A DNA stretch of 52,812 nt from contig VGZH01000036.1 in NCBI GenBank assembly GCA_016872645.1, forward strand, positions 1 to 52,812, written 5' to 3'. This stretch comes from Planctomycetota bacterium (GTDB lineage: Bacteria > Planctomycetota > Planctomycetia > Planctomycetales > Planctomycetaceae). The position numbers and the translations under genes were made by a program. The first letter of the stretch is position 1; the number at the start of each line of letters is the position of its first letter. The notes below the pieces were generated by a model, which was not told the DNA's origin, did no database searches, and saw nothing but the letters and a program-made list of their open reading frames with translations. Below, piece by piece: positions 5,886 through 49,535 of this stretch.

Positions 5886-8339
5886 TCATCTTCGTCTTGT
5901 TCGTCGCGACTCTTTGTCGCTCTTCGTCGGAGTCGGCATTCTTCGCGAAGAGGCTTTGGCGCCTGATTGTTCTCCGCGAGGGCGACGGCCCGGCGCGCGG
6001 TCGAGCACCAACCGAAAATCGAGTTCGCGGCGGTCGACGTTCACGAAGGCGACTTGCACGCGGACTCTGTCGCCCAACCGCAACTGCTTGCCGGTGCGGC
6101 GACCGACCAAACTAACGCTCGCCTGGTCGAAGTCGAAGTAATCTTTCTCGGCCAGCGTGCTGATGTGGACGAAGCCATCAACGGGCATCTCCACACCTTT
6201 GCAGAACATACCGAAGCGTTCGACTCCGGTGATGATCGCGTCGAATTCATCGCCGACTCGCGTGGACATGAACGCCAGCAGCTTAATCTTCGTCAGTTCA
6301 CGCTCCGCCTGAGCCGCTCGACGTTCGGTATCGGAACAATGCGTGCCGAGAATTTCGAGTTCGACCTCGCTCGGCCCGTGCGGCGTCTTGCCGCTGGCGA
6401 ATTCATCGAACAAGCGGTGAATCGTCAGGTCTGGGTAGCGGCGGATCGGACTGGTGAAGTGGCAATACTCGGTGACCGCCAGCGCGTAGTGGCCGATCGG
6501 CACGCCGGAGTACTCTGCCTGCCGCAGACTGCGGAGCAAGGCGTAGTTGACAGCATGCTCGGCCGGAGTGCCGGCGACATCTTTGAGCAGCTTTTGCAAC
6601 GCGGCTTTCGACAGAATCACCGGACTGTCGAATGGAGATGGTCGCGATCTGAGATTTGAAATTTGAGATTTGTGTTTCCCTTTGCGATTTCCTTTCGCTC
6701 GTCGCTGCTCGCGATTGGGTGGCTGCGGTTCGCCGATGTTGAACCCGAGCGTCGCCACAAACTTCGCGAAGGCTTGCAGCTTGACGGAATCCGGCTCGGC
6801 GTGGACTCGCCGCAAAAAGCCGACCTCAAGGTCATTCATTTTTGTCGCCACGGCGATATTTGCGGCGAGCATGAACTCTTCGATGAGCTGATGACTCTCA
6901 TCGTGCTCGACTTCATGAGCACCGATGACTCGGCCCTCTTTGTCGAAGTCGAGTTTGACTTCCGGCAGGTTCAGATCGAGCGAACCTTTTGCAAAACGGC
7001 GTCGCCGCAACATCATCGCCAGCGAGTGCAAGTCGTGAAGGAGTTGAATGACGGCAGCGTCTACTTTGGCGTGCGGGGTGTCAGTCCCGCTTTGGATTTT
7101 TTCTCCGGACGAACCCAAAGTGGGACTGACACCCCGCACTCCAAGGACCAGCGGCATCACTTCTTCGTAGGCAAATCGCTGGGTGACTTTGATCGCCGAT
7201 TTCATGAATTCGGTGTGAACCGGGACGCCATCGGGCGTGAACTCGATGAACGCCGAATTCGTGTACCGCACGCGGCCCTGTTGCAGGCTCGCCAGGCCGT
7301 TCGAAATCACCTCTGGCAGCATCGGCAACACGCGTGTCGGCAGGTAAACGCTGGTGCCACGCTTCCGCGCTTCGCGATCCAGCACACTGCCACGTTTCAC
7401 AAAATGAGCGACGTCGGCAATGTGGACTCCCAGCACCCAGTGGCCCGCTTCGTTCCGTTTCAGCGAGATCGCATCGTCAAAGTCACGAGCGTCGAACGGG
7501 TCGATGGTGATGACCGTTTCGTTCGTCAGATCGAGCCGTCCGCGCAGGTCCGCTTCGTCAAAGAGTTCCGCTTGCCGAGCCGCTTCATGTAGCACTTCGG
7601 GGGGAAACTCGTCGGGCAGATTGAACTCGTGGATGATCGACAGCAAATCGACACCTGGTTCCCCCTTCGCGCCGAGCACTCGCGTGAGCACCGCTTCACC
7701 AGAATGAGCATGCGACGGAAATCGCAGCATCTCGATGACAACTTTGTCGCCGGGAGCGGCTCCTTTCGCGCCGGGATCACCAACGGAGATCGGATCTTCG
7801 AAATTGCGGCCGTCGATCATCACATAGCCCTGGCCGTCGAACTCGTCGTACGTTCCGACGAACGAATTTGTCGCTCGCTGGATGACCTCGACCACTTTGC
7901 CGTAGGCCCGCTCCCCGGCGCGAGGCTGCCCCACCAATTGCACGATGACGTTGTCGCCGACTTGCGCATCCTTCAAATCGCGCGTCGTGATCGAGACCTC
8001 CAGCGGCTTCATCCCCGCCCGATGCCCCGCCGCGTCGGCTGTCGCGATGAACACCGCGCCGCGAACGCCGATTTTCCTGATGACCCCGGAGAGCGATCCT
8101 GGTTTAAGTTTCGACTTTTGCGGCGGAGTGTGATCTGACTCGGGTTGACTCGAAAGCTGCTGATCCTGTTCGAGGCTCTTGACGCCGCGCTGGAAGATCG
8201 TCCGCCAGGCAGTCAGGAACTCCGCGAAGTCGCGTTTGCGAATGTTCAACCGCTTGGCGACTCGCTTCGGATCGAGCTTCTTGGCGTTCGGTCGAGAGTG
8301 GATGTAGTCGGTGATGAGCGTTTGAAAGACGTCGGACAT
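5886..8339 (-). CDS. rnr: Ribonuclease R
   Basis: A 3'-to-5' exoribonuclease that degrades structured RNA; cytoplasmic. The 817-residue protein has an N-terminal helix-turn-helix-like part, two cold-shock (OB) domains (about 80-250), the RNB catalytic domain with DPFDARDFDDAIS at 280-292 holding the metal-binding aspartates, and an S1 domain near the C-terminus (GVERFGMFCKG). The tail is basic. I start it at ATG 8339 (MSDVFQTL), since the 28 codons upstream do not look like protein. Two stretches are foreign to the family: residues 399-425 are encoded by a 79-bp palindrome, and residues 555-565 by another short repeat. Both lie between conserved RNB segments and keep the frame. The gene ends the leftward block that starts with the glycosyltransferase, with a 132-base gap after selB. 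Confidence 0.95.
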   Translation of the reverse strand: MSDVFQTLITDYIHSRPNAKKLDPKRVAKRLNIRKRDFAEFLTAWRTIFQRGVKSLEQDQQLSSQPESDHTPPQKSKLKPGSLSGVIRKIGVRGAVFIATADAAGHRAGMKPLEVSITTRDLKDAQVGDNVIVQLVGQPRAGERAYGKVVEVIQRATNSFVGTYDEFDGQGYVMIDGRNFEDPISVGDPGAKGAAPGDKVVIEMLRFPSHAHSGEAVLTRVLGAKGEPGVDLLSIIHEFNLPDEFPPEVLHEAARQAELFDEADLRGRLDLTNETVITIDPFDARDFDDAISLKRNEAGHWVLGVHIADVAHFVKRGSVLDREARKRGTSVYLPTRVLPMLPEVISNGLASLQQGRVRYTNSAFIEFTPDGVPVHTEFMKSAIKVTQRFAYEEVMPLVLGVRGVSPTLGSSGEKIQSGTDTPHAKVDAAVIQLLHDLHSLAMMLRRRRFAKGSLDLNLPEVKLDFDKEGRVIGAHEVEHDESHQLIEEFMLAANIAVATKMNDLEVGFLRRVHAEPDSVKLQAFAKFVATLGFNIGEPQPPNREQRRAKGNRKGKHKSQISNLRSRPSPFDSPVILSKAALQKLLKDVAGTPAEHAVNYALLRSLRQAEYSGVPIGHYALAVTEYCHFTSPIRRYPDLTIHRLFDEFASGKTPHGPSEVELEILGTHCSDTERRAAQAERELTKIKLLAFMSTRVGDEFDAIITGVERFGMFCKGVEMPVDGFVHISTLAEKDYFDFDQASVSLVGRRTGKQLRLGDRVRVQVAFVNVDRRELDFRLVLDRAPGRRPRGEQSGAKASSRRMPTPTKSDKESRRTRRR
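6646..6676. repeat. Family D repeat inside rnr
   Basis: TGAGATTTGAAATTTGAG and its flanks form a low-complexity A/T-rich block unlike the GC-rich gene around it. The same core occurs at 12495-12522 inside the glycosyltransferase gene. It encodes residues 555-565 (KSQISNLRSR) of RNase R, in a linker just after a basic stretch. Confidence 0.65.
7066..7144. repeat. Family A palindrome inside rnr
   Basis: Arms 7066-7095 and 7115-7144 are inverted copies, 28 of 30 bases identical, around a 19-base spacer. Each contains GCGGGGTGTCAGTCCC or its complement. A close relative with GTGCTGACACCCCGC lies between gatC and gatA (49448-49524). The palindrome encodes residues 399-425 of RNase R without a frame break. 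Confidence 0.9.
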
Positions 8340-8471
8340 GCGGGCCTCGCGAAATTGGTGACCGAGCGATCTTCGGGACACGCACCCGGAAGAGCAATGA
8401 TCCACGAAGCCACAAACACACATTGTGCTTCCTTGTGGCCTGGCGCCTTGCTGGTTCGACTCACCGTGGTT

Positions 8472-11949: not shown

Positions 11950-13005
11950 CTACTGTCCCGCACACACCGCTTCTAGGCAGGCGGTGAGTCGAGGGAGTTG
12001 GGCGTTGACAGAATATCTTTCGGCAACCGTTGTCCGCGCTGCTGCCAGGACGGAGGCGCGGCAATGCGGCTCGGACAGCAGTTGCCGCAGCACGAACAAC
12101 CATTCATCCGGCGTCGTGGCCAGCCAACCGTTTGTTCCATGATGGATGATCTCTGAGTTGACACCGACGGGAGACGCGACCGCGGGAACTCCGGCAGCCA
12201 TGTATTGCAGGATCTTCAAACCACACTTGTAGCGAGTCCACTCGGTGTCCGGCATCGGCATCAGGCCGACGTCGAAGGTTTGCAACTCGGAAACTTCATT
12301 CGTTTCCGACCAAGGGACGAAGCGAGTCGGAATTCCATCTCGCTCGAACTGCAATCGCTTTAACAATCGGCTCGACTCAGCGATCACACGCAGTTCAATT
12401 TGACTCTCACGTGCCAGTTGGCGCAGTGGTTCGCGCAGGACATCGAGGTACTCGACATTCGCTGCCGTGCCCGTCCAGCCGAGGACAAGGGGCGGATTTG
12501 AAACTTGAGATTTGAAATGTGAGCTCGGCGAATATCGCTCTACGTCCACACACGTCGGAATCACGGTCACTCGCGGGGTGACCATTCGCGTGCGAGCCGC
12601 CAGCAGTTCGTTGCCGGCGATGACGTGGTCGCTCAATCCACAGAGCACTTCGAACTTGTGCCGGTGCAACGCAAACAGTCCGTCGTCGATGTCGAGTACC
12701 AACCGGCGAGCGATCTGTCGCAATGCCTGTTCGACGTTAAACGTTGCATCGCTGAAAAGCTCGCGTTCGAGAACGACAACGTCGGGCGACCAGCGTTCCA
12801 ATGCGGCGAGGTCGGCCCAGCGATTCCAGCGTTTGACGACTCCGCTCAATCGAAATCCGAGTAGCGGCCAGGAGGCGTATTTCTCTGGGCGACTCGGCAG
12901 CACCAGACATTCGTGGCCATGCCGTTGCAGGTGTGGCACAAACGGTAAGACCCGAAAGCGGCTGCTGGGGACAAACCGGCCCGAAGTGAGAAAGGCGACT
13001 CGCAT
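11950..13005 (-). CDS. Glycosyltransferase, GT4-like (GT-B fold)
   Basis: Probably transfers a sugar from a nucleotide donor to a glycan or lipid at the inner membrane. The 351-residue protein begins MRVAFLTSGRFVPSSRFR, a typical first strand, with VVLERELF in the first half. The second half has VLGWTGTAAN and the donor-site helix KCGLKILQYMAAGVPAVASPVG, where most members have an EA.A.G.PV motif. The start at 13005 leaves out six weakly supported codons. Residues 162-171 (SHFKSQVSNP), in the linker between the two Rossmann halves, are encoded by a repeat also found in rnr. It is the first gene of the leftward block that contains the sulfatase and selB; substrate unknown. Confidence 0.88.
   Translation of the reverse strand: MRVAFLTSGRFVPSSRFRVLPFVPHLQRHGHECLVLPSRPEKYASWPLLGFRLSGVVKRWNRWADLAALERWSPDVVVLERELFSDATFNVEQALRQIARRLVLDIDDGLFALHRHKFEVLCGLSDHVIAGNELLAARTRMVTPRVTVIPTCVDVERYSPSSHFKSQVSNPPLVLGWTGTAANVEYLDVLREPLRQLARESQIELRVIAESSRLLKRLQFERDGIPTRFVPWSETNEVSELQTFDVGLMPMPDTEWTRYKCGLKILQYMAAGVPAVASPVGVNSEIIHHGTNGWLATTPDEWLFVLRQLLSEPHCRASVLAAARTTVAERYSVNAQLPRLTACLEAVCAGQ
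12495..12522. repeat. Family D repeat inside the glycosyltransferase gene
   Basis: ATTTGAAACTTGAGATTT followed by GAAATGTGAG matches the block at 6646-6676 over TGAGATTTGAAAT-TGAG with one mismatch. It is in frame and codes for a short linker between the two halves of the enzyme. Confidence 0.65.
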
Positions 13006-45313: not shown

Positions 45314-45316
45314 CTT

Positions 45317-45345
45317 TTGGAGTGCGGCGATTCATCGCCGCTTTG
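45317..45345. terminator. Terminator-like member of palindrome family A
   Basis: GCGGCGA and TCGCCGC (45324-45330, 45335-45341) pair around TTCA, within TTTGGAGTGCGGCGA-type flanks. The GGAGTGCGG opening and the GCTTTGG closing are shared with the palindromes in rnr and between gatC and gatA. It starts 4 bases after the NagB-like stop. Confidence 0.65.
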
Positions 45346-45389
45346 GATTCTCTTTACCTCCGACACCTTTTGAGTTGACATCGTCCTTA

Positions 45390-49441: not shown

Positions 49442-49447
49442 CACTTA

Positions 49448-49524
49448 GGGAGTGCGGTGTGTCAGCACCGCTTTAGTTCACTTTGGCCAAATCCTTCAAA
49501 GCGGTGCTGACACCCCGCGCTCCA
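49448..49524. repeat. Family A palindrome between gatC and gatA
   Basis: GGGAGTGCGGTGTGTCAGCA plus CCGCTTT (49448-49474) and AAAGCGGTGCTGACACCCCG plus CGCTCCA (49498-49524) are inverted at 24 of 27, around 23 bases. It shares GGTGTCAG, the GCGG pair and the CTTTGG edge with the palindrome inside rnr. It fills nearly the whole gap between two genes that are usually adjacent or overlapping. Confidence 0.9.
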
Positions 49525-49535
49525 AAGTTTGCATC

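Follow-up and report, generated by a model that had tools for sequence, protein, structure and literature searches.

Different palindromic elements share one loop of the RNase R gene in related planctomycetes

The window analyzed here is a contiguous stretch of 52,812 nucleotides from a Planctomycetota bacterium (GenBank assembly GCA_016872645.1, contig VGZH01000036.1). On its reverse strand lies a stop-free open reading frame (ORF) of 845 aa (positions 5886–8423) whose product carries RNB, CSD2 (cold-shock) and S1 domains by Pfam. The predicted structure of the product matches solved RNase R in a fold search, which adds nothing beyond that fold, and both domains and fold identify it as RNase R. 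Translation probably starts at Met29 (codon 8337–8339). In frame within the ORF is an inverted repeat with 33-nt arms (7066–7098 and 7112–7144) that are 91% complementary and separated by 13 nt. A preliminary description made from the sequence had noticed this palindrome of 79 bp, and it is real. The arms, given there as 30 bases with 28 matching, are indeed strongly palindromic and measure 33 nt; the residues, given as 399–425, were counted from Met29 and correspond to about 427–454 of the 845-aa ORF. Folded as RNA (85 nt), the palindrome reached −57.6 kcal/mol, versus −27.4 kcal/mol (sd 3.2) for dinucleotide shuffles, and none of 200 shuffles did equally well. By inverted repeat, RNA folding and half-unit scan, the element spans 7065–7145 and consists of two 33-nt half-units arranged head-to-head. 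The first (7065–7097, forward strand), delimited by half-unit match, unit consensus and stem covariation, reads TTTGGCGT, hairpin GCGGGG-TGTCAG-TCCCGC and TTTGGAT; the second, inverted (7113–7145, reverse strand), was placed by half-unit match and is separated from the first by a 15-nt linker (7098–7112). We refer to elements of this type as family A.

The insert is predicted to be disordered. In an AlphaFold2 model built with 17 sequences (mean pLDDT 79), residues 430–451 have a pLDDT below 50 and lie between helices 419–426 and 456–478, and in the alignment with two solved RNase R sequences the loop at this position is short in both. Tolerance of the protein loop is thus the simplest filter. 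These residues are absent from homologues of other genera, most of which carry a short spacer at the position, as had been proposed. The preliminary description also held that the element entered a conserved enzyme without breaking it; ORF and domains are intact, from which we infer that RNase R carrying the insert still works.

Family A is dispersed throughout the host genome, as the preliminary description had supposed. A half-unit probe with two pairs of stem positions left open gave 71 + 71 = 142 matches at three or fewer mismatches, 100 of which were listed, versus none for the reversed pattern. With the 79-bp unit as query, BLAST returned 85 matches distributed over both strands, and 40 of the 82 candidates were scored. 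Presence of the unit elsewhere in the genome and absence of the inserted residues from distant genera were both checked, and both favour the earlier reading. The half-unit consensus is TTTGGAGT, stem GCGGNN, loop TGTCAG, stem NNCCGC and TTTGGAT. We collected 145 half-units from the window and 72 fetched stretches, the latter chosen from the 100 listed half-unit matches or from places found by BLAST with the 79-bp unit. They formed 68 pairs and nine singles, and every one of the 68 pairs was head-to-head, with linkers of 12–126 nt. All six stem pairs were present in 105 of the 145 half-units, and at the two variable pairs of the stem, bases were complementary in 278 of 290 cells, versus a mean of 220 and a maximum of 233 in 1000 shuffles. 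A core-only probe, GGTGTCAGTCC, performed poorly, with five genome matches, because two stem positions covary. Within a 120-genome sample of the taxonomic family, family A matches occurred in five of five genomes of the genus and in three of 115 others, with one or two matches each; judged by these matches, family A is nearly confined to this planctomycete genus.

Most sampled family A copies are outside genes: 46 of 77 sampled places were spanned by no ORF having 40 residues on both sides of the element, and 31 by some such ORF. The window contains a second pair (49446–49526, by half-unit match) in the gap before an Amidase-family (gatA) gene, agreeing with the related palindrome described earlier between gatC and gatA. 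It begins 4 nt past the stop of the upstream ORF, presumably gatC as recognized by eye, and ends 9 nt ahead of an ATG of the amidase gene. A lone, diverged half-unit matched at 45316–45348 (forward strand). A stop triplet in any frame lay within 8 nt of the element in 68 of the 136 flanks of the 68 pairs, a count made without a shuffled control, which suggests that the elements often sit just after genes.

Six copies appear to lie inside genes, a lower bound for the 77 places, Pfam having been run on 10 element-spanning ORFs. They reside in RNase R, an Lhr-type helicase, a Ski2-like helicase, an ImuB-like polymerase and two PSCyt2/PSD1 proteins, one of the latter copies being a single half-unit. 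Support comes from Pfam domains and conserved flanks in relatives; the names Lhr, Ski2-like and ImuB rest on Pfam domains and our reading of the sequences. In RNase R and the five other genes alike the frame is unbroken, as in the palindromic elements (RPEs) of Rickettsia, and all six share the reading frame of the last arm. Four of the six are in nucleic-acid enzymes. The remaining four tested ORFs have their known domain wholly beyond the element, which therefore probably lies ahead of the gene.

The larger point, which the preliminary description missed, is that the palindrome at this RNase R site differs among related species. The genus comprises 12 genomes, ten of them with a readable RNase R (G010 had no match and G008 only a weak partial one), and all ten, the window's included, have an inverted repeat within window residues 429–454. 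Five kinds were distinguished: A in G000; B in G009 and G011; C in G004 and G006; D in G002, G003, G005 and G007; and E in G001. The repeat of G003 was seen on joining two contigs, and both inner arms of that in G007 are on one contig. Each of A, B, C and D is multi-copy in the genus, with controls at 0–3 per genome; these counts cover A–D and leave out E (G001) and two palindromes described below (F and that of family f3). Family D had 594 matches in G007 and 656 in G003, and family C 623 in G006 and 293 in G004. The two genomes with family B at the RNase R site are not rich in it, having 21 and 38 matches. The B and C counts include some places matched on both strands. An RNase R tree built from gap-free columns grouped G004 with G006, G002 with G003 and, with less support, G000 with G005, and left the order of changes open. 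The contigs of G003 and G007 break within the D copy, which splits RNase R there. Many of the listed D copies in G007 and G005 lie within ~100 nt of a contig's first base, so this repeat probably breaks assemblies.

Across 126 measured RNase R loci, 12 had an inverted repeat at the site and 114 did not. The 12 comprise ten of the genus, near-duplicates included, together with G047 and G051, members of another family of the class (f3) that share a further, sixth palindrome. A long spacer free of inverted repeats was present in four measured loci (L058, L071, L080 and L309). The 126 loci are those of 130 remaining after removal of L033, L034, L060 and L062, whose contigs end in the site; some of them are near-duplicates, L026 being the window itself and L056 and L057 resembling L027 and L028, and nine of 40 outgroup loci without the motif were read by tblastn instead. 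The RNase R loop is a shared place for palindromes and not the only one: nine other inverted repeats lie elsewhere in the same ten genes.

Loops that hold family A in other host genes are also occupied in relatives. An inverted repeat was found at the corresponding loop in six of nine Lhr, six of nine Ski2-like, five of seven ImuB and one of nine PSD1 loci. Among the five ImuB positives, one likewise belongs to family A, and families D and F, the latter a repeat beginning GTAG, are among the palindromes found. Some relatives share one kind through descent, and the positives are to that extent non-independent. In a control excluding L246, L255 and PSD1, 16 of 23 loop sites were positive versus 23 of 589 equal-length flanking windows; here the insert was taken as mid-locus, some flanking windows may touch it, and 10 of the 23 positive windows come from a single locus, L245. 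L256 and L265, where contig ends leave one side of the site only, were dropped. Other families have left the PSD1 loop unused: its sole positive relative, G002, also carries A and is the only one with an insert, seven of the nine have ~15 native residues there, and the host's own copy is too diverged to satisfy the inverted-repeat criterion. The PSD1 locus of G009 (L273) has an expanded (TD)n dipeptide repeat in the loop where G000 and G002 carry family A.

Family A resembles the REP, REPIN and BIME elements described in the cited parts of PMC3116915 and PMC8266576, which are high-copy small hairpins, form inverted doublets with a variable linker and are mostly extragenic. Its unit is likewise an imperfect-palindrome hairpin, dispersed in high copy (142 versus 0) and arranged in inverted-repeat doublets (68 of 68 pairs). 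Unlike them, it has no GTAG or CGTC tag 5′ of the hairpin, the consensus there being TTTGGAGT, and no RAYT flanked by the same repeat was found in 30 loci read. These were drawn from 91 Y1-type matches in 11 of the 12 genomes of the genus, and a cognate transposase with A within 1 kb was found at none of the 30. The nearest A was 1.4 kb from the host's own Y1 transposase gene (L201), which is flanked by GTAG-type repeats and not by A; in L293 an A with four mismatches lay ~1.8 kb from the match start. Family C was 0.3 kb from the match start in L295, and family B 1.5 kb in L292. Direct repeats of at least 4 nt (offsets up to 2) were absent from the edges of the 68 A pairs, which thus show no target-site duplication of the kind sought in testing for a MITE.

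Precedents exist for in-frame palindromes and for shared sites; what is new here is the occupation of a single loop by several families that are each dispersed separately. REPs tagged with GTAG or CGTC occur in Planctomycetes (PMC3733652, in the part cited), which limits the earlier remark that no named planctomycete counterpart was known; family A lacks that tag. The same source describes intragenic REPs in frame, many as dimers or groups coding for 20–30 residues and often in DNA repair genes, and different REPs at about the same recB site of two Xanthomonas species. By comparison, a single RNase R loop here has at least five palindrome kinds within one genus, and loops of three other genes are likewise re-used. 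The Rickettsia RPEs, rightly named as a precedent in the preliminary description, are in-frame palindromes in conserved genes but are larger (100–150 bp) and belong to another host (PMC3767692, as excerpted). Orthologues there carry inserts at the same locus, and whether this reflects a hot spot or common origin is discussed and left unsettled in the part cited; unlike that case, A–D are separately dispersed, which speaks against common origin. Inverted repeats also occur in protein genes of Nematomorpha mitochondria, where both arms encode conserved protein regions; the abstract of that study (PMC6649704) describes no dispersed inserts, unlike family A. Our search of open-access literature found no paper that combines ribonuclease R, palindromic elements and planctomycetes, although one may exist outside the literature covered.

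The occurrence of different, mostly unrelated palindromes in the same loop across relatives suggests that a few tolerant loops are struck repeatedly. We therefore favor, with a probability of about 0.75, a reading in which REPIN-like elements survive within genes in tolerant, disordered loops that are re-occupied by successive families. Family A would be a non-autonomous, REPIN-like mobile palindrome, made of two inverted 33-nt REP-like hairpins with a short variable linker and presumably moved in trans by a Y1/HUH (RAYT-type) transposase. A few copies would have landed in frame in loops that tolerate some 20–60 extra hydrophilic residues, and those would be the survivors. Because such loops would be few and lastingly tolerant, successive families would re-occupy them, and the RNase R loop would have held at least five kinds within the genus, the insert being putatively neutral and its kinds having presumably replaced one another. 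Counted against this reading are the failure to find a cognate transposase in the 30 loci, the missing tag, the nine other repeats in RNase R and the PSD1 loop that other families have not re-used. The four long repeat-free spacers, the non-independent positives, the low abundance of B in its two site carriers and a possible kinship of A with D also weigh against it, as does occupation of all ten readable genomes, which is more than tolerance alone would predict.

That full occupation would fit selection of the hairpin itself at the RNA or DNA level, for example in tuning translation or mRNA decay; RNase R and other nucleic-acid enzymes would gain from a strong palindrome of any family in that place. 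Such selection, compatible with re-occupation of tolerant loops, is in line with the four in-gene copies in nucleic-acid enzymes and with one seemingly compensatory change in family B (G011 versus G009). However, paired bases are broken in C of G004 and D of G002 (these changes, like nesting below, were judged by eye), 114 of 126 RNase R loci lack a palindrome at the site, and so do three of nine Lhr, three of nine Ski2-like and two of seven ImuB loci of relatives, and we consider it unlikely. Hot spots in the DNA, also compatible with the favored reading, are a possible if doubtful source of the pattern: the machinery may prefer a local sequence or structure, or old palindromes may attract new ones. 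In ImuB of G007 and G010, D arms lie next to other palindromes or around them, an arrangement that also accords with the favored reading, and adjoining or nested elements occur in Lhr of G002; such elements suggest that new copies can enter old ones. Moreover, the nucleotide adjoining the outer edge of an A pair is a C in 74 of the 136 flanks and a T in 42, and cleavage by TnpA-REP of E. coli takes place at CT (PMC8266576, in the part cited). Nevertheless, a search of the flanks of A revealed no evident common target sequence, and the f3 palindrome occupies the same RNase R loop despite differing surrounding DNA.

Divergence of a single ancestral insert, the origin favored for Rickettsia RPE-4/6/7 in the cited part of PMC3767692, is very improbable here, since at-site copies match their own genome-wide families, for instance with 0 mismatches in an arm of the B copy of G011 and in an arm of the D copy of G007, and A–D are each multi-copy. 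Among the 15 pairs of six arm kinds, only the pair of A with D was clearly above shuffles (3/300; next lowest 60/300), whereas same-family arms of 28–32 nt score 24–30; from this weak similarity, A and D are perhaps distantly related. Assembly artefact or chance is scarcely credible: the assemblies are drafts, and in G003 and G007 a contig break falls inside the D copy, but in eight genomes of the genus the insert is in frame and contained in a single contig, and codon-shuffled versions of the window RNase R averaged 0.15 inverted repeats per gene (20 shuffles). Speculatively, a few loops, chiefly in nucleic-acid enzymes, might be exchangeable palindrome slots, in which families are replaced because a palindrome is useful or because old ones attract new. 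Separately dispersed families in one loop make the question raised for Rickettsia, hot spot versus diverged insert (PMC3767692, as excerpted), testable, and RNase R offers a natural series of loop replacements in which repeated DNA turns into protein sequence.

RNase R has other variable places. A second variable, low-confidence loop lies at 6625–6690 (reverse strand; about residues 578–600, pLDDT below 50 at 581–598) and contains an AT-rich repeat (GAGATTTGAAATTTGAGATTTG) coding KSQISNLRS, which recurs in diverged form near window positions 12493–12528. A third insertion site, at residue ~676, is occupied in L032, L062 and G003 (L276), with an inverted repeat there in G003.
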